A DNA stretch of 46,039 bases, taken from the NCBI GenBank assembly GCA_028716165.1, contig JAQUQI010000013.1:1-46039 (forward strand). Direction: 5' to 3'. Below are positions 3 to 43,146 of this stretch, piece by piece. The first letter of the stretch is position 1, and every line of letters begins with the position of its first letter. Both the position numbers and the translations under genes were made by a program. The notes beneath the pieces were generated by a model. It worked only from the letters and a program-made list of their open reading frames with translations, ran no database searches and was not told the origin of the DNA. This stretch comes from Candidatus Omnitrophota bacterium (GTDB lineage Bacteria; Omnitrophota; Gorgyraeia; JABMRG01).

Positions 3-644
3 AACCAGGATAGCATAGAGCTCATAAACAGGGAATTCGCAAAGGTCAAGGCCGCAAAAAGGATACACGGCCCCTTTCTTGCCCTTGCCCCGGCAAGTTC
101 TGATACGCGTATCCGTAATCTGTCAAAACAGCGTATGCTTTCCGGCCTGCGTGTATGTAAAGCGCTGGGATGCGACAATATTGTATTGCACAGCCACTAT
201 GATCCTGTTTATCACAAAAAGCATAAGGCTGATTGGCAAAAATACGCGGATATGACCTGGGCTGATGTGGAGGCTTTGAGCAAAGAACTTTGTATCACTG
301 TCAATATTGAGAATTCGGAGGATGACGGCCCGGATGCCGTATTCTATCTTTTAGATAGGTACCCGTCTTTTAAGGCCTGTTTTGACCTTGCCCATTATAC
401 TGTATTTGGTTTAGAGCCCTGGAAAGATATCCTTGCCTCGTATCCTAATGGCTCTGTCAATGAAGCGCACATATCGGACAATAATACAAAGGAAGACCAG
501 CATCTTATTTTAGGACGCGGGCTTGTTGATATCAAAGGTTTTTTACGGCAGCTGCGCCTTGCCGGCAATGCCGTCGTTACCATTGAGCCTCATTCAAAGG
601 CGGATATGATAAAAGATATAGAATACATGAGAGATTTTTCTTGA
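3..644 (+). CDS. Sugar phosphate isomerase/epimerase-like TIM-barrel protein (5' partial)
   Basis: The reading frame is open from the left edge, so the N-terminus is missing; the first internal Met codon is at 135 and is probably not the start. The visible 213 residues resemble the C-terminal two thirds of xylose isomerase-like TIM barrels (the AP endonuclease 2 superfamily). I see the strand NIVLHSHYD, the strand ending in NIENSEDDG, FDLAHYTVFG with an Asp and a His typical of the metal site, HISDN, and a final GRGLVDIKGFL segment. These enzymes bind a divalent metal and isomerise or epimerise sugars; the substrate cannot be read from sequence. The TGA stop lies inside the -35 box of the next gene's promoter, so this is probably the end of an operon. 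Confidence 0.75.
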   Translation, partial: NQDSIELINREFAKVKAAKRIHGPFLALAPASSDTRIRNLSKQRMLSGLRVCKALGCDNIVLHSHYDPVYHKKHKADWQKYADMTWADVEALSKELCITVNIENSEDDGPDAVFYLLDRYPSFKACFDLAHYTVFGLEPWKDILASYPNGSVNEAHISDNNTKEDQHLILGRGLVDIKGFLRQLRLAGNAVVTIEPHSKADMIKDIEYMRDFS

Positions 645-669
645 CAATGTTTTTTCGTGTTGTTAAACT
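641..669 (+). promoter_or_regulatory. Sigma-70-type promoter for the first TIGR04073-like gene
   Basis: A perfect TTGACA at 641-646 is followed after 17 bases by TAAACT at 664-669 (four of six matches). The -35 box overlaps the stop codon of the upstream gene. Transcription would start near 676, leaving a leader of about 35 bases before the ATG at 711. Confidence 0.6.
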
Positions 670-710
670 ATAAAAAATAGGGCCATGCATTCATAAAAGG
701 AGGAAAGCAG

Positions 711-1064
711 ATGTCAAAAAGCGTTAAGGTCGGGGTGGTTTGCGTGTTGGTATTATGCGTTGCCGCGATAGCTTTGCCTGCGTTTGCGCAGGAAGGCAGC
801 GTGATAGAAAAAATGGGTAAAAAACTTGGGCGAGGTATAGTGAATATCGCGACAGGCTGGGTGGAACTGCCGAAAAATATATATGATATAAGCGTTGAAA
901 AAAATAACCCGCTTATGGGTATTACCTACGGCACGTTAAAAGGCTTAGGCATGACTGTGGTAAGGACAGGCGCTGGTGCGTATGATACCGTGACTTTTCT
1001 ATTCCCTGTCCCGCAGGATTATCAGCCGATATTGCAGCCTGAATTTGTGTTTGAAGAGAAATAG
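711..1064 (+). CDS. Secreted TIGR04073-family (exosortase-system-associated) protein
   Basis: This 117-residue protein has a signal peptide: a basic start, a hydrophobic core at about 7-24, and a likely AFA cleavage site before QEG. The mature part carries the pattern I associate with TIGR04073: a KKLGRGIVNIATGWVELP block, then an N-P-L-M-G-I-T-Y-G-T-L-K-G helix, then a C-terminal Thr/Phe-Pro segment. The family is known only by its co-occurrence with exosortase systems, and no biochemical role is established to my knowledge. A strong AAAGGAGG ribosome site lies 7 bases before the ATG. The gene has its own promoter (641) and terminator (1097), so it is probably monocistronic. A divergent relative is at 3893. 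Family assignment is from memory of the motif. Confidence 0.75.
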   Translation: MSKSVKVGVVCVLVLCVAAIALPAFAQEGSVIEKMGKKLGRGIVNIATGWVELPKNIYDISVEKNNPLMGITYGTLKGLGMTVVRTGAGAYDTVTFLFPVPQDYQPILQPEFVFEEK

Positions 1065-1096
1065 TCCAATAACCGGTGGCATCTGTTGAGAATGAT

Positions 1097-1150
1097 TAAA
1101 ACGAAGCAATAAAAACAGATTAAATGAAGATTTATTGCTTCGTTTTATTT
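1097..1150 (+). terminator. Intrinsic terminator after the first TIGR04073-like gene
   Basis: Positions 1097-1113 and 1131-1147 form a perfect 17-base-pair stem around a 17-base loop. The stem has A-runs and T-runs at its ends, so it could work in both directions, and a T-rich tail follows. The next coding region starts at 1167. Confidence 0.7.
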
Positions 1151-1166
1151 TGGAAAGCGGTTTATT

Positions 1167-1580
1167 ATGGGCATATCCAGAGAAGTCAGAGAGCGCAGAT
1201 CCAGCAACCGCAAAACAGGCTCGGATGAAAAAAGAAATTATATAAGGGCCGATGTTTCCGTACCGATTATTATTTATGTGAAGAAAAAGAACGGCCCTGA
1301 AAAGGTGAATGCCAGGGCTTGGAACATTAGCGCCAGCGGTATGATGGTAGAGGCGGGTGATAATTTTGATACCGGTATAAAGGTCGGCATTGAAATTACC
1401 ACGCCAGGCAGTCCCAACCCGGTGCACTGTAAAGGCAGGATAGTGTGGGCATCGGAAGGCAAGATCGGCAAAAACGGTTATAGCTACGGTGTGGAATTTA
1501 TTTCCATTGAAGAAGACAACAAGAACACATTCCTGAAGTTTTTATGTGATCTAATATACAAGAACTCGCAAACTTTGTGA
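1167..1580 (+). CDS. PilZ-domain protein (probable c-di-GMP receptor)
   Basis: This 137-residue protein is essentially one PilZ domain. The N-terminal loop has an R-x-x-x-R motif (RNYIR, residues about 31-35) preceded by several Arg residues. The second c-di-GMP contact motif, N-x-S-x-x-G, is present as NISASG at about 51-56. The strand GRIVWASEG and the closing YGVEFISI are also typical. PilZ domains bind c-di-GMP and relay it by protein contact; both ligand motifs are intact, so binding is likely, but the target is unknown. There is no signal peptide, so it should be cytoplasmic. The ribosome site is weak (GGAAAG about 11 bases upstream). It begins 17 bases beyond the preceding terminator. 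A second PilZ protein at 2093 and a c-di-GMP riboswitch at 3000 are close by. Confidence 0.85.
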   Translation: MGISREVRERRSSNRKTGSDEKRNYIRADVSVPIIIYVKKKNGPEKVNARAWNISASGMMVEAGDNFDTGIKVGIEITTPGSPNPVHCKGRIVWASEGKIGKNGYSYGVEFISIEEDNKNTFLKFLCDLIYKNSQTL

Positions 1581-1632
1581 ACAGCTGTTGATCTTTTTGG
1601 ATTGTGCGGAACAAAAAAAAGGAGGTGGCAAA

Positions 1633-2013
1633 GTGGCAAGGAGGGGGTTTAGGTTATTTGCGGCATGGGTTTTGGTTGTCGCCTGTCTTGCATCCTGCGG
1701 ATATGCGCTGGCGGATGATGGATGCCAGTCTGCCGGAGGGGAGAACAAGGTGGTAAAATTTTTTAAGGGTGTTTTTAAATGGCCTTTTAGCGTTACGAAA
1801 CAAGGCGCTGAAACTGTTGGCCGAACCACAAAAGCCGGAGTTACTACCGTTGCGAATACAGGTGTTAGCGCCGTTGAGACTGTAACGGGTAAACCTGAAA
1901 AGATAAAGGATGTTATTGTTGAGCCTGTCAAAGGCACGGCCGAGACAGGATATACAGCTGCTGAAGGAGGCATTAAAACGCCTGTAGAGGGGACAAAAGA
2001 GGCATTTGAATAG
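1633..2013 (+). CDS. Secreted or lipoprotein-like protein with repetitive helical C-terminus
   Basis: I place the start at the GTG at 1633, because AAAGGAGG sits 7 bases upstream; an ATG at 1588 in the same frame has no ribosome site. The resulting 126-residue protein starts VARRGFRLFAAW and has a hydrophobic signal. It contains LASC, which fits a lipobox, and ALA just before DD, which fits signal peptidase I, so lipoprotein or periplasmic fates are both possible. The mature part is low-complexity and rich in Thr, Val, Gly, Ala and Glu, with repeated E-T-V/T-G and V-E/K-G-T steps suggesting amphipathic helices. I do not recognise the family. The composition resembles the C-terminal parts of the proteins at 3893 and 5758. 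A terminator follows at once. Confidence 0.7.
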   Translation: MARRGFRLFAAWVLVVACLASCGYALADDGCQSAGGENKVVKFFKGVFKWPFSVTKQGAETVGRTTKAGVTTVANTGVSAVETVTGKPEKIKDVIVEPVKGTAETGYTAAEGGIKTPVEGTKEAFE

Positions 2014-2016
2014 TAA

Positions 2017-2070
2017 GAGGCTGGTGTGATTTTTATGCGTGTATCTAAAAATCATACCAGTCTTTTTTAT
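2017..2070 (+). terminator. Intrinsic terminator
   Basis: Positions 2017-2034 pair with 2047-2064 in an 18-base stem containing G-T wobbles, followed by a run of T (2063-2068). It begins three bases after the stop of the preceding gene. Confidence 0.7.
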
Positions 2071-2092
2071 TTTACATGTCCGGCAATAAATC

Positions 2093-2833
2093 ATGAAAAT
2101 TAAAATTAATTATATAAAAAACATAGCGGTTTTGACAGTTGACGGCAAAATCAATATTAATTCGTCAAAGCTTATAGAGAGCGTAGCGGGCCTGCTGGAC
2201 AAGGGCGTATCTAAGCTCATTATTGATATGCAAAAAGTGGATTTCGTTGATTATAACGGCCTGTCTGTGATAGCCATCACCTATAAGAATGTTCTTAACA
2301 ATAACAGCGCCATGAAACTATGCGGGATTGCCCCGCACATACAAGAGCTTTTCAGGGTTGTAAAACTTGATGATGTCTTTGAGATATATAACGACATCAA
2401 TAGCGCTGTATCCGGTTTTGAGGTTGCAACGGATGGCATACGGGCGAAAAGCAGGCCAGGTATCCAGCCGTTGAGAAGGAAATTCGCAAGGCTTGACATG
2501 GACATTCCGGTGACATACAGGCTTTCTCTGCCTGGGAAATGCTTTGCGACTACCGAGATACTAACCGGAAGAATAGAAAATATAAGCGGCGCCGGGCTGT
2601 TCGTGCGTTCAATAAACCTGCTGCCTCCGGGCAGCGAGGTATCGGTTGGAGTAAAACTGAATAATGATCAGGAACCCAGATACTTTAACGGTGTGGTAAT
2701 GTGGCTCGCGGACAAAAATCTCCAGCCCTGGCTGTTCCCCGGAATGGGGATAGCTTTTACGGATATATCATACGGTATCAGAGAAAACATACTGCAGTTT
2801 ATAGAAAAGAACGCCACTCACAGAAAAGGCTGA
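2093..2833 (+). CDS. STAS-PilZ fusion protein
   Basis: This 246-residue protein has two domains. Residues 1-110 are a STAS domain like the anti-sigma factor antagonists (SpoIIAA/RsbV): an opening beta strand ending in VDGKI, the core strand LIIDMQKVDFVD, and a terminal helix. The usual phosphorylation motif D-S-S-G-L is D53-Y-N-G-L57, so the Ser that partner kinases phosphorylate is Asn. Residues about 125-246 are a PilZ domain with both ligand motifs, R-x-x-x-R (RKFAR) and N-x-S-x-x-G (NISGAG), and a closing MGIAFTDIS strand. The likely role is to pass c-di-GMP binding to a STAS partner without Ser-phosphorylation control. The target is unknown; an ECF-type sigma factor gene lies 1.5 kb downstream. 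No obvious ribosome site precedes the ATG. Confidence 0.85.
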   Translation: MKIKINYIKNIAVLTVDGKININSSKLIESVAGLLDKGVSKLIIDMQKVDFVDYNGLSVIAITYKNVLNNNSAMKLCGIAPHIQELFRVVKLDDVFEIYNDINSAVSGFEVATDGIRAKSRPGIQPLRRKFARLDMDIPVTYRLSLPGKCFATTEILTGRIENISGAGLFVRSINLLPPGSEVSVGVKLNNDQEPRYFNGVVMWLADKNLQPWLFPGMGIAFTDISYGIRENILQFIEKNATHRKG

Positions 2834-2909
2834 CCTGCCGATAAAAAAAGACAAAACCGCATACTCAAACCAGCACCTACCCGCCATTTTTTTGTAAATC
2901 TGTAAAAAA

Positions 2910-2921
2910 TGTAAATTTACA
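2910..2921 (+). promoter_or_regulatory. Perfect palindrome upstream of the riboswitch promoter, candidate operator
   Basis: TGTAAATTTACA is a perfect 12-base palindrome. It is flanked by further TGTAAA/TTTGCACA-like half sites at 2893-2932 and ends about 20 bases before the -35 box at 2941. Its position fits a regulator site. The regulator is unknown; the possible ribbon-helix-helix protein at 3193 is one candidate. Confidence 0.4.
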
Positions 2922-2940
2922 CATTTGCACATTTGAACTA

Positions 2941-2969
2941 TTGACTTTTTTCATTACACAAGGCATATT
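2941..2969 (+). promoter_or_regulatory. Promoter of the riboswitch-controlled operon
   Basis: TTGACT at 2941-2946 and CATATT at 2964-2969 are separated by 17 bases. Transcription would start about 25 to 30 bases before the aptamer, as expected if this promoter makes the riboswitch RNA. Confidence 0.5.
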
Positions 2970-2999
2970 TATTACGGAAAGGCAAACAGGGTTCTTTTA

Positions 3000-3100
3000 C
3001 AGAGAATACGATAAAGGCAAACTGTCCGAAAGGACAGGGCGCAAAGCCGCGGGCCTAAAATCTTGTAAAACCAGGGTTATGGCAGTCGGGTTGCCGAATT
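3000..3100 (+). promoter_or_regulatory. Cyclic-di-GMP class I (GEMM) riboswitch aptamer
   Basis: The conserved GEMM-I core is readable by eye against the known Vibrio Vc2 aptamer. In order it has AAAGGCAAAC (3013-3022), a six-pair hairpin CTGTCC/GGACAG with a GAAA tetraloop (3022-3037), GCGCAAAGCC (3039-3048), the tetraloop-receptor-like GGGCCTAAAA (3051-3060), and a 3' half GGTTATGGCAGTCGGGTTGCC (3075-3095 region). The base equivalent to Vc2 G20 is G3016, which favours c-di-GMP over 3',3'-cGAMP, where it is usually A; the base equivalent to A47 is A3043. It precedes an intrinsic terminator and the operon starting at 3193, and two PilZ genes lie just upstream. Whether the ligand turns expression on or off cannot be read from the sequence. 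Confidence 0.9.
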
Positions 3101-3117
3101 TCATTTATTTAGGACAT

Positions 3118-3172
3118 GGCCCCAAGGCTTCAATACGCGCTTTTACCATATTGATAGTTTTGGGGTTTTTTG
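3118..3172 (+). terminator. Riboswitch expression platform: intrinsic terminator
   Basis: Positions 3120-3135 (CCCCAAGGCTTCAATA) pair with 3149-3165 with two G-T wobbles and one bulge, giving a stem of about 16 pairs. A run of six T (3166-3171) follows, and the first gene of the operon starts 20 bases later. This placement is typical of transcription-terminating riboswitches. Confidence 0.8.
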
Positions 3173-3192
3173 TTTAATAAGGCGAGCCAGGT

Positions 3193-3492
3193 ATGAAGAT
3201 ACGTCATGGTGAAAAAGAAATCGCGGGTAGAGTGGTAGCGTTTCTTACGAGGCCGGAAATAGATTATATAGACAGCCTTGCAAAAGACGCTTTGTTTTCT
3301 ACGGGGCATAAGTTGTCAAGGACTGACATTATACGCGCTGTCATTGACTGCGTAAAATCAAGTAAAATTAACGGCAAAGGTATTTCTTCAAGGCAGGGGT
3401 TGGAAAAAAGGCTGTATTGTTGTCTGCAGACGGCATTGCCTGATGCCGTATCGGAAATAATTGAGGCAAGGGGCGGGCATGATAATAATTAA
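3193..3492 (+). CDS. Small protein, possible ribbon-helix-helix DNA-binding protein
   Basis: This 99-residue protein is the first gene after the c-di-GMP riboswitch. I do not recognise a named family. Residues about 14-53 have the layout of a ribbon-helix-helix fold: a short strand VVAFLTR, a helix PEIDYIDSLAKDAL, a turn with G and K, then LSRTDIIRAVIDC as the second helix. SRT/S-D-I-I-R-A at the start of that helix is common in CopG/MetJ-type repressors. The rest is a short Lys/Ser linker and a helical tail. There is no signal peptide. The ribosome site is weak. It overlaps the next gene by 14 bases, suggesting translational coupling. A role as an autoregulator or an operon-specific switch is an inference. 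Confidence 0.65.
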   Translation: MKIRHGEKEIAGRVVAFLTRPEIDYIDSLAKDALFSTGHKLSRTDIIRAVIDCVKSSKINGKGISSRQGLEKRLYCCLQTALPDAVSEIIEARGGHDNN

Positions 3493-3742
3493 ACTGGCTA
3501 TGGTCATATTGCTTCTTGCGCCTTTTGTGTTTGTGATCTCGGTTGTGGTATTGTCTTCGGATGAAGCTCTTTACTGTTTAAACGGGGACAGATTATTGAC
3601 TGCGGATATGGGCAGAAATATTGCCGTATATTTGAAGGAGGCCAGCGGGTGTATATTTTGTCTGGAAATGGATATTATACAAGATGCCCTGATGCGGTAT
3701 AGCCGCGCGGGCGGTTTTGTGCCAAGGAGACGCTATGTATAA
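3479..3742 (+). CDS. Small one-helix membrane protein of unknown function
   Basis: The start at 3479 is chosen because AAGGGG lies about 6 bases upstream; an in-frame codon at 3461 has no such site. The 87-residue product has one strong hydrophobic segment at about 4-27, followed by a hydrophilic part with SSDEALYC and a CIFC motif at about 57-60, and ends in a basic RRRYV tail. The uncleaved-looking helix suggests an inner-membrane protein with a short exposed domain; the CxxC pair could bind a metal or form a disulfide. No family recognised. It overlaps the genes on both sides (14 bases with 3193, 8 bases with 3735), so it belongs to the riboswitch operon. Confidence 0.6.
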   Translation: MIIIKLAMVILLLAPFVFVISVVVLSSDEALYCLNGDRLLTADMGRNIAVYLKEASGCIFCLEMDIIQDALMRYSRAGGFVPRRRYV

Positions 3743-3878
3743 AAGGTTAAAATTTAAATCTGATATGAAATGCCCGATGATAACAAGATGGCAGACCAGA
3801 AACGCCGATTTTATGCAGATAGAGATATCGCCGGTCCATGTATTAAGGATCAAGATAGATAAAGCGGTAAAAAAATAG
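3735..3878 (+). CDS. 47-residue basic protein of unknown function
   Basis: ATG at 3735 follows AAGGAG with 5 bases between, and the frame runs 47 codons to TAG at 3876. It overlaps the end of the preceding gene by 8 bases and stops 14 bases before the next ATG, so spacing and ribosome site both support a real gene. The product starts MYKRLKFKSDMKCP, is rich in Lys and Arg, and ends IKIDKAVKK. It has no membrane segment. The middle, QTRNADFMQIEISPVHVLR, could form a strand and helix. I do not recognise a family. A regulator or a partner of the neighbouring membrane protein is possible but unsupported. Confidence 0.55.
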   Translation: MYKRLKFKSDMKCPMITRWQTRNADFMQIEISPVHVLRIKIDKAVKK

Positions 3879-3892
3879 AAAAGGAGGTTTAT

Positions 3893-4246
3893 ATGAGAAG
3901 GGGAAGAGATATGAGGCGCCATCAGAGATGCGTAAGGCGAAAAGCGGGGATAAAGAGGTTCATAAGAGGTTTCTTGCCATTTGCGCTGGTTTTTGTCCTT
4001 GTTTTTCCTGCTGTCGCGGCAGGGCAGGAGGCCGGCAAAAAACTTATACAGGGTATTGAGGATACCGCCACCGGGTGGACGGAAGTGCCTAAGGAAATGG
4101 CCGAGACCACGCAGGAAACGAACGTGGTGGAAGGTGTAACGGCTGGCGCCATAAAAGGCGCGGGCGAGGCTATTTCCGGCACAGTAGAGGGGGTCGTGGA
4201 AATAGCGACCTTCTATGCCCCGGAAAGCGAAGACAATAAGCAATGA
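3893..4246 (+). CDS. TIGR04073-like secreted protein in the riboswitch operon
   Basis: This 117-residue protein starts after a strong AAAAGGAGG site 6 bases upstream. It has an unusually long basic N-terminus (about 25 residues, many Arg), then a hydrophobic segment ending in AVAAGQ, consistent with a signal peptide. The mature part starts KKLIQGIEDTATGWTEVP, aligning well with KKLGRGIVNIATGWVELP in the protein at 711, and continues with a Gly/Ala-rich stretch GVTAGAIKGAGEAISGTVEG. This is the same TIGR04073-like layout, though the C-terminus differs. Unlike the copy at 711, this one lies behind the c-di-GMP riboswitch. It may start further in, at the Met at residue 7. Confidence 0.75.
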   Translation: MRRGRDMRRHQRCVRRKAGIKRFIRGFLPFALVFVLVFPAVAAGQEAGKKLIQGIEDTATGWTEVPKEMAETTQETNVVEGVTAGAIKGAGEAISGTVEGVVEIATFYAPESEDNKQ

Positions 4247-4306
4247 TAGAAGTTTATTGAATGCCCGGGAGGGGTTAAAGGCCCCTTCCGGACGGAGGGT
4301 AGATAA

Positions 4307-4852
4307 ATGCCTCTTGACCGGAAAAACAGATTATTCCAGCTTTTATACAGGCGTTATTTTAATAAGGTACGCTTACGCGTCAGGCGCATTCTGCGCAATG
4401 AAATGGACGTCGTGGATGATATTGTGCAAGAGGCTTTTATGCGCGCTTATATGAACATGGATAAAACGTACAAAAAAGATGATTTTATAAGATGGGTGTT
4501 TATAGTAGCGCGCAATCTCTGCTTGAATTACAAAAGAGCGAACAGCAGGACGTTGGCAGGCGCGTTAAAGCCTGCCGACAGGCAAAACTACAGCGCAAAT
4601 CTCATTGACACTGTAGCTGATTGTAATTGTCCCGCGCCCGATAAGATTGCCGAAAAAAATGAGCTTGTATGCGTGTTCAGGGAGTGCGTGCAAAAATTAA
4701 CGCCTAAATACAGATTGGTTGTCCAGCTTTGCGGCATTGAAGGCTATTCGTATCATGCCGCTGCCGCGCAATTGCATACAAGCGCCAGCGTGATTGCCCA
4801 TGACCTGATGAGGGCAAAGAGGCTTTTATCATCAAAGATGGCTATCATGTAA
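4307..4852 (+). CDS. ECF-type sigma-70 family RNA polymerase sigma factor
   Basis: This 181-residue protein has the two-domain layout of group 4 (ECF) sigma factors. Region 2, at about 10-80, contains the core-binding pattern VVDDIVQEAFMRAY and an aromatic-rich helix (FIRWVFIVARNLCLNY). A linker with Cys residues follows, then region 4 at about 123-176 with LTPKYRLVVQL and a helix-turn-helix (GYSYHAAAAQLHTSASVIAHDLMRAKRLL spans this part). The recognition helix is divergent: A-H-D replaces the usual S-R-x in the position before the L-x-R-A-K end. The start at 4307 follows GGAGGG by 7 bases. It is 60 bases after the preceding gene, so it is probably the last gene of the riboswitch operon. No anti-sigma gene is adjacent. 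Confidence 0.85.
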   Translation: MPLDRKNRLFQLLYRRYFNKVRLRVRRILRNEMDVVDDIVQEAFMRAYMNMDKTYKKDDFIRWVFIVARNLCLNYKRANSRTLAGALKPADRQNYSANLIDTVADCNCPAPDKIAEKNELVCVFRECVQKLTPKYRLVVQLCGIEGYSYHAAAAQLHTSASVIAHDLMRAKRLLSSKMAIM

Positions 4853-4869
4853 TGTTATCATACTGTCTT

Positions 4870-4900
4870 ATCGCGGCACAGCCCGCCTTTTTGATTTTTA
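4870..4900 (+). terminator. Possible weak terminator after the sigma factor gene
   Basis: A short GC-rich hairpin (GCGG at about 4873 with CCGC at about 4884) is followed by T-rich sequence. The stem is only four or five pairs, so this is a low-confidence call. Confidence 0.3.
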
Positions 4901-5011
4901 CCTTTCTATGTATCCCTGTAATTTTTTCAGCGTGATAGGATTTTTATTTGAAAATACAAACCATTCTTTTGCGGTCAGACTGTTCCGTGTATCTGCGCGT
5001 GCAATTTTTAC

Positions 5012-5040
5012 TTGACAATTTTTTTTAAAAGTGCTAATTT
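5012..5040 (+). promoter_or_regulatory. Strong promoter of the outer-membrane barrel gene
   Basis: A perfect TTGACA at 5012-5017 is followed after 17 bases by TAATTT at 5035-5040. The expected transcription start is at or next to the ATG at 5048, and no ribosome site precedes that ATG, so the mRNA may be leaderless. Confidence 0.65.
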
Positions 5041-5047
5041 ATAGCCA

Positions 5048-5731
5048 ATGCGATTTAAGTTTTTATCTTTTTTTTTCCTGTTATTATTATTTAATCCTTC
5101 TTTATGTCAAAGCGCTCCATGTTATGGGACAAAGATACCCGCAAAAGGCGGATTTTTTTCAGGCATAGAAGTTTTCCACATTGACAGAAACCTTGAGAAA
5201 GACCAGGGTAAGGTCAAAAGCACCCAAAGTTTTTTATTGGTTTCATATGGATTGCAAGACTGGTTTAGTATTGATTTAAAGGTTGGCATCGGAGGCATAG
5301 ACAGATACAGCGCCCCTTACCACAACGTTGATTATAGCGCGAGATTTGACGGTGGATACGGGTTTAGAGCGCTTTTTTTTGACAGAGACAATGTCAGGCT
5401 GACCGGAGGTTTTCAGCATATCAGCGTTCATCCAAACACGGTAAGCCTTGACAATAAAAAATATAAAGCCGTTCTTGATGATTGGCAGGTCTCTTTACTG
5501 TTGTCATACGATTATTCTCACCTTTCTTTATATGCCGGCCCGCGCGTTTCAAGAACGGATTACATAAATTGGATAGACAATGCCAGGAAACGCCATATGT
5601 CTGATAGCGGAGATTGTATAGGTTTTGTTTGCGGTGCCGATATCAAGATTACTGATGAAATGTGGCTAAACGCGGAGGCAGGTTTTATTGACGCTAAAAC
5701 AGCGGCAATAAGCCTTATGGCCAGGTTTTAG
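5048..5731 (+). CDS. Outer-membrane beta-barrel protein
   Basis: This 227-residue protein has a clear signal peptide (hydrophobic core at 4-17, probable cleavage near QSA). The mature chain alternates polar and hydrophobic residues in many short strands, for example SFLLVSYGLQDWFSIDLKVGIGG, VSLLLSYDYSHLSLYAGPRVS and MWLNAEAGFID, with aromatic residues at strand ends. It ends in ISLMARF; a terminal Phe is the usual BamA-recognised signal of outer-membrane proteins. About eight to ten strands would fit a small barrel. Function (pore, adhesin or enzyme) cannot be told. Its own promoter ends 7 bases before the ATG and there is no ribosome site. The AsmA-like gene follows after 26 bases and probably shares the transcript. 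Confidence 0.8.
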   Translation: MRFKFLSFFFLLLLFNPSLCQSAPCYGTKIPAKGGFFSGIEVFHIDRNLEKDQGKVKSTQSFLLVSYGLQDWFSIDLKVGIGGIDRYSAPYHNVDYSARFDGGYGFRALFFDRDNVRLTGGFQHISVHPNTVSLDNKKYKAVLDDWQVSLLLSYDYSHLSLYAGPRVSRTDYINWIDNARKRHMSDSGDCIGFVCGADIKITDEMWLNAEAGFIDAKTAAISLMARF

Positions 5732-5757
5732 GATTGGCCCAAACAAGGGAGGCCCGA

Positions 5758-6537
5758 ATGAAAAAATTTTTTACGGTAGTTGTTGTCGTAGTGGTTCTGT
5801 CAGCAGGTCTTTTATTGGGCAAGGATATCGCGGCCAAAGTTGTCGTTGAAAAGGTATTTGGATTAGCCACAGGCCTTAAGCTTAAAATGAGCGGCCTCAA
5901 TGTCGGAATATTAAAGTCCTCTGTTAGCATTAACGGATTAAAATTGTATAATCCCGGGATATTTGAAGAAAGAATAATGCTGGATATGCCCGGCATATAC
6001 GTTTATTATAATCTGCCTGCCATACTCAAAGGAAAAATTCATTTGCATGATATGAAATTGGACCTTAAGGAATTTATTGTTACAAAGAATAAGGACGGCA
6101 AGCTTAATCTTGATTCGCTCAAGTCGGTTAAGGCGCAAAAACAGTCCGATAAGACGCGGCCTATTGACATGCGGATAGATAGCCTTGAATTAAAGATAGG
6201 CAAGGTGGTATATAAAGATTATTCGTTTGGCGCCGGGCCATCTGTCAAGGAATTCAATATTAATCTTGATGAAAGATATACCGATATCAGCGACCCCTAC
6301 GCGCTTATCAGCCTTATCGTAGTAAGGGCGCTCATGAATACTACCATAGCAAGCCTTACGAACTTTGACCTTAACGCTCTTTCGGGCAGCGTATCAGGCG
6401 TGGTATCCAAGGCGGGCAAGCTTGCCACAGAGACAGCTGGCAAGGCAACAAAAATCGCCGGCCAAACAAGCAAGGCTGTGACTGATGCCGCAGGCAAGTT
6501 GATCAATAATATGCCTTTTGGCGGTTCCAAGGAATAA
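5758..6537 (+). CDS. AsmA-like membrane-anchored periplasmic protein
   Basis: I set the start at the ATG at 5758, which has GGGAGG 5 bases upstream, instead of an in-frame TTG at 5734. The 259-residue product has an N-terminal membrane helix (about 4-22) and then the start of an AsmA-like fold: a TGLKLKMSGLNVGILKSSVSINGLKLYNP segment matching the beginning of AsmA/DUF748 proteins, and the strand pairs IHLHDMKLDLKEF and MRIDSLELKIGKVVYKDY. AsmA-like proteins span the periplasm and are linked to lipid or outer-membrane protein traffic, but this one is much shorter than typical members. The last 60 residues are Ala/Gly/Lys/Thr-rich helix with an 11-mer-like pattern. It is probably co-transcribed with the barrel gene at 5048. 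Confidence 0.75.
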   Translation: MKKFFTVVVVVVVLSAGLLLGKDIAAKVVVEKVFGLATGLKLKMSGLNVGILKSSVSINGLKLYNPGIFEERIMLDMPGIYVYYNLPAILKGKIHLHDMKLDLKEFIVTKNKDGKLNLDSLKSVKAQKQSDKTRPIDMRIDSLELKIGKVVYKDYSFGAGPSVKEFNINLDERYTDISDPYALISLIVVRALMNTTIASLTNFDLNALSGSVSGVVSKAGKLATETAGKATKIAGQTSKAVTDAAGKLINNMPFGGSKE

Positions 6538-42257: not shown

Positions 42258-42623
42258 ATGCTGCGTAAAAAGGGTTTTACTCTGATAGAGGTTTTGATCG
42301 TAATTATTATTTTAGGCATACTCGCCACCTTAGCCATGCCTCAATTCGCGGGCCTGGCAAAAAGGGCCTATTTTGCCGAGGCCTGGACAGGGCTTAGCTC
42401 AATGAGGACTGCCATGGAGTTATACAAGCAGGAAAACGGAAACTATGCCGGAGCCACTGTAGCCAATATACCTTTTACCACTCCGACAGGCGCCGTGTTC
42501 GCTTATTCCATAGCCAGTGTTGACGCGACCAATTATAATCTATTAGCCACCGGAAGCGGTAAGGCATCAGGCCTTACGGCATGGGTGACAGAGGACGGCG
42601 ACAAAGGAAATGCGGGAGCTTGA
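42258..42623 (+). CDS. Type IV pilin/major pseudopilin, copy 1
   Basis: This 121-residue protein has the class III prepilin start MLRKKG-FTLIEV: a short basic leader, cleavage after Gly, Phe at +1 and Glu at +5, then a hydrophobic helix VLIVIIILGILATLAMPQF. The rest is a small globular part (AYFAEAWTGLSSMRTAMELYKQENGNY at its start), with no Cys. This fits a short major pilin or GspG-like pseudopilin. GGAGG 7 bases before the ATG; own promoter and terminator. The protein is identical to copy 2. A prepilin peptidase must be encoded elsewhere. Confidence 0.92.
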   Translation: MLRKKGFTLIEVLIVIIILGILATLAMPQFAGLAKRAYFAEAWTGLSSMRTAMELYKQENGNYAGATVANIPFTTPTGAVFAYSIASVDATNYNLLATGSGKASGLTAWVTEDGDKGNAGA

Positions 42624-42780: not shown

Positions 42781-43146
42781 ATGCTGCGTAAAAAGGGTTT
42801 TACTCTGATAGAGGTTTTGATCGTAATTATTATTTTAGGCATACTCGCCACCTTAGCCATGCCTCAATTCGCGGGCCTGGCAAAAAGGGCCTATTTTGCC
42901 GAGGCCTGGACAGGGCTTAGCTCAATGAGGACTGCCATGGAGTTATACAAGCAGGAAAACGGAAACTATGCCGGAGCCACTGTAGCCAATATACCTTTTA
43001 CCACTCCGACAGGCGCCGTGTTCGCTTATTCCATAGCCAGTGTTGACGCGACCAATTATAATCTATTAGCCACCGGAAGCGGTAAGGCATCAGGCCTTAC
43101 GGCATGGGTGACAGAGGACGGCGACAAAGGAAATGCCGGAGCTTAA
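42781..43146 (+). CDS. Type IV pilin/major pseudopilin, copy 2
   Basis: The product is identical, residue for residue, to copy 1: prepilin leader MLRKKG, cleavage before FTLIEV, hydrophobic assembly helix, small Cys-free globular part, 121 residues. The coding DNA differs only at one Ala codon and the stop. It has its own promoter, GGAGG site and terminator, so the cell gets two full units, which probably raises pilin dosage. Because the flanks have diverged more than the coding part, gene conversion is likely. Confidence 0.92.
   Translation: MLRKKGFTLIEVLIVIIILGILATLAMPQFAGLAKRAYFAEAWTGLSSMRTAMELYKQENGNYAGATVANIPFTTPTGAVFAYSIASVDATNYNLLATGSGKASGLTAWVTEDGDKGNAGA

Follow-up and report, generated by a model that had tools for sequence, protein, structure and literature searches.

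Within the window analysed here, a 46,039-nt contig (C13) from the 1.6 Mb, 27-contig genome of a Candidatus Omnitrophota bacterium, a class I cyclic di-GMP (c-di-GMP-I) riboswitch is followed on the same strand by five small genes, the last of which encodes an extracytoplasmic function (ECF)-type sigma factor (Table 1). The conserved phylum-wide unit is the riboswitch together with gene 1, not the sigma factor. For the window itself we favour, on balance, a single transcription unit under an OFF riboswitch, autoregulated by the gene 1 protein and including an orphan ECF sigma factor. An earlier note on this DNA had described a riboswitch leading five small genes with overlaps or short gaps, the fourth TIGR04073-like and the last a sigma factor, and this description holds. 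The riboswitch matches its Rfam family, and five plus-strand open reading frames follow. Gene 4 belongs by score to the NCBIfam exosortase-associated family TIGR04073 (58.8 bits, cutoff 50), and gene 5 exceeds the cutoffs of PF04542 (Sigma70_r2), PF08281 (Sigma70_r4_2) and TIGR02937 (sigma70-ECF; 76.2, cutoff 42.9), having regions 2 and 4 and no region 3.

The tie between the switch and gene 1 became apparent when a gene 1 alignment was scanned against 84,980 species genomes. The scan gave 35 loci, every one of them from Omnitrophota. An aptamer of the c-di-GMP-I clan lies directly upstream on the same strand in 30 of the 34 informative loci, which were chosen by protein alone; L108, for which there is no upstream sequence, stands outside this set. 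All but one of the 30 aptamers (29) exceed the gathering score, and the remaining one, in L088, falls below it with E=6e-6. L102 and the truncated L118 are aptamer-like by eye only, L102 having missed E=0.01 in a later scan, and no aptamer was found upstream of gene 1 in L112 and L117. In further genomes found with a gene 1 profile, the aptamer is present in 19 of 22. Of 292 genomes sampled from the class, 79 have a gene 1 relative, as a rule just one; none was found in genome G003. Since a typical genome has one to a few such aptamers, the association is far beyond chance.

The gene 1 family is also linked to c-di-GMP on the protein side, as shown by PilZ fusions and cyclase neighbours in relatives. 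In characterised proteins the PilZ domain binds c-di-GMP, and in four loci the gene 1 relative carries such a domain fused at its C terminus (L109:4490-5092, L110:4971-5585, L112:4977-5558 and L131, the last at G054:C52 57856 onward, where the fusion was recognised by reading the sequence). Those in L109, L110 and L131 stand behind a c-di-GMP-I riboswitch and that in L112 does not; the window gene 1 itself has no PilZ domain. At L088:5263-6669, a GAF-GGDEF diguanylate cyclase gene overlaps the 3' end of a gene 1 relative that lies behind a c-di-GMP riboswitch, and genes of the same size occupy the same place in L090 and L093 (Pfam was run on L088 only). A cyclase beside gene 1 could possibly close a feedback loop, and feedback is likewise suggested by the family as a whole, as some members are fused to PilZ and others adjoin a diguanylate cyclase. 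Directly upstream of the window operon and in the same orientation are a PilZ-like gene (1167-1580) and a STAS-PilZ fusion (2093-2833). Because both are kept in G002 (JAUVHV010000015, CSMAG_411), which represents another genus of the same family, c-di-GMP may act on the region at several levels.

The leader contains the parts expected of a transcriptional riboswitch. The aptamer is complete over model positions 1-87, far above the gathering score of 35, and is the sole c-di-GMP-I riboswitch in this genome. It has G rather than A at what we take to be position 20 in Vc2 numbering (AAA-G-GC before GCAAAC), presumably making c-di-GMP rather than cyclic GMP-AMP (cGAMP) its ligand. The G20A change has a role in c-di-GMP versus cGAMP recognition (PMC6274999). 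The -35 box of the promoter is at position 2941, where the stretch described in the earlier note begins, and in the 31 gene 1 leaders examined the aptamer is preceded by TTG-N16-18-TATACT-like promoters. The terminator hairpin starts 21 nt past the aptamer and has no strands in common with it, and both can form together. In 28 of 31 related leaders, the stretch separating gene 1 from the aptamer contains a terminator, scored as a hairpin of -10 kcal/mol or better plus a T-tract, compared with 12% of dinucleotide shuffles. Some Omnitrophota aptamer matches span 159-168 nt instead of ~90 (L088:4623-4785, L089:4688-4846, L099:4717-4884), which points to probable long inserts, with an extra hairpin in L088.

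An OFF switch, in which high c-di-GMP would bring transcription to an early end, is the better-supported direction, and is predicted because the layout is like that of Cd1 of Clostridioides difficile, with a separate terminator downstream of the aptamer. Cd1 is an OFF switch (PMC9262584). In the proposed mechanism, transcription would start at the housekeeping-type promoter and produce a leader that folds into the aptamer and then meets the intrinsic terminator. With c-di-GMP bound, the aptamer strands would be locked, the terminator would form and RNA polymerase would stop. At low c-di-GMP, the terminator's 5' arm (GGCCCCAAGGCUU) would be taken up by pairing with an aptamer strand (AAGCCGCGGGCC), and the resulting read-through would yield the gene 1 protein, two small partner proteins, the TIGR04073 protein and the orphan sigma factor. 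The gene 1 protein is likely to bind the 8-bp direct repeats beside the promoter from which it is itself expressed.

The window's gene order recurs in G002, where the promoter, riboswitch, terminator, genes 1-3 and sigma gene are retained in order. Identity to the window is 59, 36 and 58% for genes 1-3 (BLAST alignments) and 42% for the sigma factor; gene 3 was also scored at 44% over its alignment. With protein identities of 36-60% between the two genera, the shared order is more than chance. The five-gene order given in the earlier note is preserved there in part, as the switch, genes 1-3 and sigma gene are kept and the G002 operon lacks the TIGR04073 gene. G002 keeps the neighbourhood of window positions 135 to 6537, including the two upstream genes with PilZ-like character; after its sigma gene come an inserted minus-strand gene and then beta-barrel and DUF748 genes. 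The claim of one operon behind the riboswitch is borne out by this order and by the gap at 4247-4306, in which neither an intrinsic terminator nor a sigma-70-like promoter was found. We infer that genes 1-5 are co-transcribed as a single unit.

The sigma factors of the window and G002 group in a fully supported clade, whose long branch sets it apart from the 30 other ECF proteins of Omnitrophota in the comparison. A cognate anti-sigma gene adjacent to an ECF sigma gene is common, but not universal. A neighbour bearing the HxxxCxxC zinc anti-sigma motif adjoins at least 19 of the 30 other ECF genes from Omnitrophota, the two further ECF genes of this genome among them. Gene 5 resembles the sigma factors of such pairs in its two-domain build (r2 + r4_2) and TIGR02937 match, but differs in that no HxxxCxxC neighbour stands beside it in the window or in the G002 operon. 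Because this partner is absent, it can fairly be inferred that the sigma factor is controlled by its amount, and this level, and with it c-di-GMP, may be the chief means of control. Gene 2 is unlikely to be an anti-sigma factor, because its positional equivalent persists in G004 (CP070655, from another family of the order), whose operon has no sigma gene. As to targets, the earlier note had suggested seeking promoters of this sigma factor, for example before 5048 and 6633. The regions upstream of 5048 and of its G002 counterpart have no common ECF-type promoter by alignment, and 5048 has a sigma-70-like -35 element (TTGACA). No sigma regulon was found. Other candidate pairings of riboswitch and ECF gene were rejected; in G017 a terminator and a promoter-like stretch lie between the two, and in G034 and G013 the ECF gene stands upstream of the riboswitch.

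The earlier note had called gene 1 a possible ribbon-helix-helix protein. The residue pattern fits, and on it we base our guess that the protein is ribbon-helix-helix-like; a significant family match was not obtained from Pfam, NCBIfam, PHROGs, PDB sequences or Foldseek. An AlphaFold monomer of moderate confidence (predicted local distance difference test score, 76) has helices at residues 20-37, 43-56 and 67-94. The first two are in place for a strand-helix-helix arrangement, the strand of which would form only in a dimer; the monomer does not inform on an intertwined dimer. On the DNA side, 8-bp repeats were first noticed in four leaders and then tested over 31 gene 1 leaders. In the window, the period-8 repeat before the -35 box has p=0.015 by shuffling. 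The combined p is 1.7e-4 for the 31 gene 1 leaders; for 23 other c-di-GMP-I leaders, which are not known to lie ahead of gene 1, it is 0.69. A gene 1 regulon defined by operator copies elsewhere was considered and rejected, as the window genome has no second copy of the repeat within 2 mismatches. The promoter repeats would fit a local operator for gene 1, and with it autoregulation.

Several observations weigh against the favoured reading, and they bear on the direction of the switch, the nature of gene 1 and the place of the sigma gene. In the window, the anti-terminator pairing is present (AAGCC/GGCUU plus GGGCC/GGCCC), but shuffled arms do as well (p=0.45), and the OFF prediction therefore rests on architecture and on relatives. 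The alternative is an ON switch, in which bound c-di-GMP would block the terminator and the operon would be made at high c-di-GMP. Such a switch would suit the adhesion and pilus genes that c-di-GMP riboswitches often target and that the signal induces, and in several relatives (L089, L106, L061) genes that follow gene 1 do encode secreted or surface proteins. The pilM riboswitch is an ON switch whose terminator uses up the aptamer's own 3' strand (PMC9262584), whereas the terminator here is separate. In eight related leaders the pairing of the aptamer with the terminator's 5' arm is stronger than with shuffled arms (p<=0.03), and several relatives have in this arm the complement of core strands of the aptamer, for example GTTTGCC against the conserved GGCAAAC. 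With this evidence, we consider an ON switch rather unlikely, and retain the OFF direction as the prediction.

For gene 1, hhalign gives a ribbon-helix-helix probability of 3%, and removal of the four discovery leaders brings the combined p for the repeats to 0.033, with 5 of 27 leaders below 0.05. Gene 1 could instead encode another small c-di-GMP-linked protein (e.g. a PilZ partner) that does not bind DNA, in which case the repeats would serve another factor or be AT-rich upstream elements. The complete lack of significant matches to ribbon-helix-helix families in Pfam, PHROGs and PDB speaks for this explanation. It is nevertheless doubtful in view of the helices found where expected, an alignment with ribbon-helix-helix sequences that is in register, though not significant, and the repeats at gene 1 promoters that are absent from other c-di-GMP-I promoters. 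As for the sigma gene, it belongs to the operon in two genera only and other relatives have no sigma gene at this place; weak hairpins with T-rich tails occur inside the coding regions, and the operon's widest gap (60 nt) holds a strong hairpin (-27 kcal/mol) that could uncouple sigma expression. The sigma factor may then have its own start site or be uncoupled by the hairpin, leaving genes 1-3 (or 1-4) as the regulated unit, a case reminiscent of G017, where the ECF gene near the c-di-GMP riboswitch is separated from it by a terminator. We judge this improbable, since the hairpin has no U-tract, the plus strand from 3893 to 4307 contains no sigma-70-like promoter, and G002 has the same order with a 41-nt gap free of terminators and a clear terminator after the sigma gene, closing the operon. 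In both genera the hairpin without a U-tract directly precedes the sigma ribosome-binding site, that of G002 being shorter (-11.6) and in the same place. Going beyond the single OFF unit that we favour, the locus might represent a phylum-specific family of small DNA-binding regulators doubly wired to c-di-GMP. The riboswitch would govern their synthesis and c-di-GMP itself their activity, by way of the fused PilZ in some members and, in others, of the small domain or of a partner, and in this bacterial family the system would have captured an orphan ECF sigma factor for which the riboswitch replaces the anti-sigma factor. This extended version is speculative, and we think it quite unlikely to be correct in full.

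Beyond these two genera, the gene behind gene 1 varies. The sigma factor as the heart of the system was rejected, since its gene has so far been found in this operon only in the window genus and G002. G004 has the switch, gene 1, the positional equivalent of gene 2 (21% identity to the window) and a gene-3-like short frame (34%). In G001, the switch and gene 1 precede a secreted protein of >1,200 residues, subtilase-like in appearance. In L106 a small secreted protein follows gene 1, and the opposite strand encodes a large SdrD_B/T2SS_pil_N-type protein; several other loci have genes of similar sizes. TIGR04073 genes follow gene 1 in L095, L099 and L104, and the remaining loci have surface-type or enzyme genes there. 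TIGR04073-like genes recur behind Omnitrophota c-di-GMP-I riboswitches with or without gene 1; L071:127-1513 contains three consecutive ones, and the third of these immediately follows the switch. Tiny, very basic proteins of 32-38 aa were observed after gene 1 in distant relatives (L113:5451-5675, L115:5437-5544, L116:4432-4548).

Regulator genes under c-di-GMP riboswitches are already known. In Vibrio cholerae, tfoY is a regulator gene behind a c-di-GMP-I riboswitch; the window shares a c-di-GMP riboswitch ahead of a (here putative) transcription regulator, but tfoY belongs to another regulator family and there is no sigma factor. The Cd1 riboswitch of C. difficile controls the flgB operon including sigD (PMC6366702), and riboswitch control of sigma level is thus not new in principle; the earlier note's statement that no such system had been described overstates the novelty. 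The window resembles Cd1/flgB in its class I aptamer, separate downstream intrinsic terminator and operon with a sigma factor (PMC6366702, PMC9262584). The differences are that the flagellar sigD lies inside a 23-kb flagellar operon, whereas here an orphan ECF-type sigma factor ends a set of five genes, led by an unknown regulator family and found in Omnitrophota. CdbA of Myxococcus xanthus is a small ribbon-helix-helix protein and c-di-GMP receptor, a tetrameric nucleoid-associated protein that binds c-di-GMP through K8/S10 and R27/R30 (PMC7156744). Gene 1 is similar as a small (putative) ribbon-helix-helix protein in a c-di-GMP network, but has an insertion between the helices, an added C-terminal helix and no sequence match in the PDB search. 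AmrZ of Pseudomonas, a ribbon-helix-helix regulator of c-di-GMP levels for which no c-di-GMP binding was seen (PMC7156744), likewise ties c-di-GMP genes to a regulator, but is not behind a c-di-GMP riboswitch.

Three things seem new, namely a phylum-wide family of regulators linked to these riboswitches, the fusion of some of its members to PilZ and, in two genera, an orphan ECF sigma factor. The phylum-wide family of switch-linked regulators appears to be undescribed; no paper on Omnitrophota with c-di-GMP or a riboswitch was found in the open literature, a scope that excludes most subscription papers and preprints. The findings suggest a c-di-GMP-controlled regulator family across an uncultured phylum, with a riboswitch tie frequent enough to serve as a marker, and a locus where an ECF sigma factor may be controlled through RNA instead of an anti-sigma protein. 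All of the principal steps are open to experiment in E. coli or in vitro, and the organism need not be grown.

Table 1. Features of the riboswitch-led locus in the window
Feature	Position	Strand	Remarks
Candidate operator, 8-bp direct repeats (ATTTACACATTTGCACATTTG)	2913..2937	+	Period-8 repeat, lies shortly upstream of -35 box
Sigma-70-type promoter, TTGACT-17-CATATT	2941..2969	+	Promoter-like site
c-di-GMP-I riboswitch aptamer	3006..3098	+	Rfam RF01051, 81.7 bits, E=1.1e-14
Intrinsic terminator (expression platform)	3119..3172	+	Hairpin 3119-3166, -19.5 kcal/mol, then T-rich tract
Gene 1, putative ribbon-helix-helix-like regulator, 99 aa	3193..3492	+	Family conserved across Omnitrophota
Gene 2, 87 aa, single N-terminal membrane helix	3479..3742	+	14-nt overlap with gene 1
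Gene 3, basic protein, 47 aa	3735..3878	+	8-nt overlap with gene 2
Gene 4, TIGR04073-family secreted protein, 117 aa	3893..4246	+	Gap of 14 nt after gene 3
Hairpin without U-tract ahead of sigma gene	4252..4303	+	-27.4 kcal/mol for 63-nt gap region
Gene 5, ECF-type sigma factor, 181 aa	4307..4852	+	Gap of 60 nt after gene 4; PF04542, PF08281, TIGR02937

Elsewhere in the window, two tandem pilin-like genes (42258-42623 and 42781-43146) are of equal length and identical over their N-terminal 50 residues.

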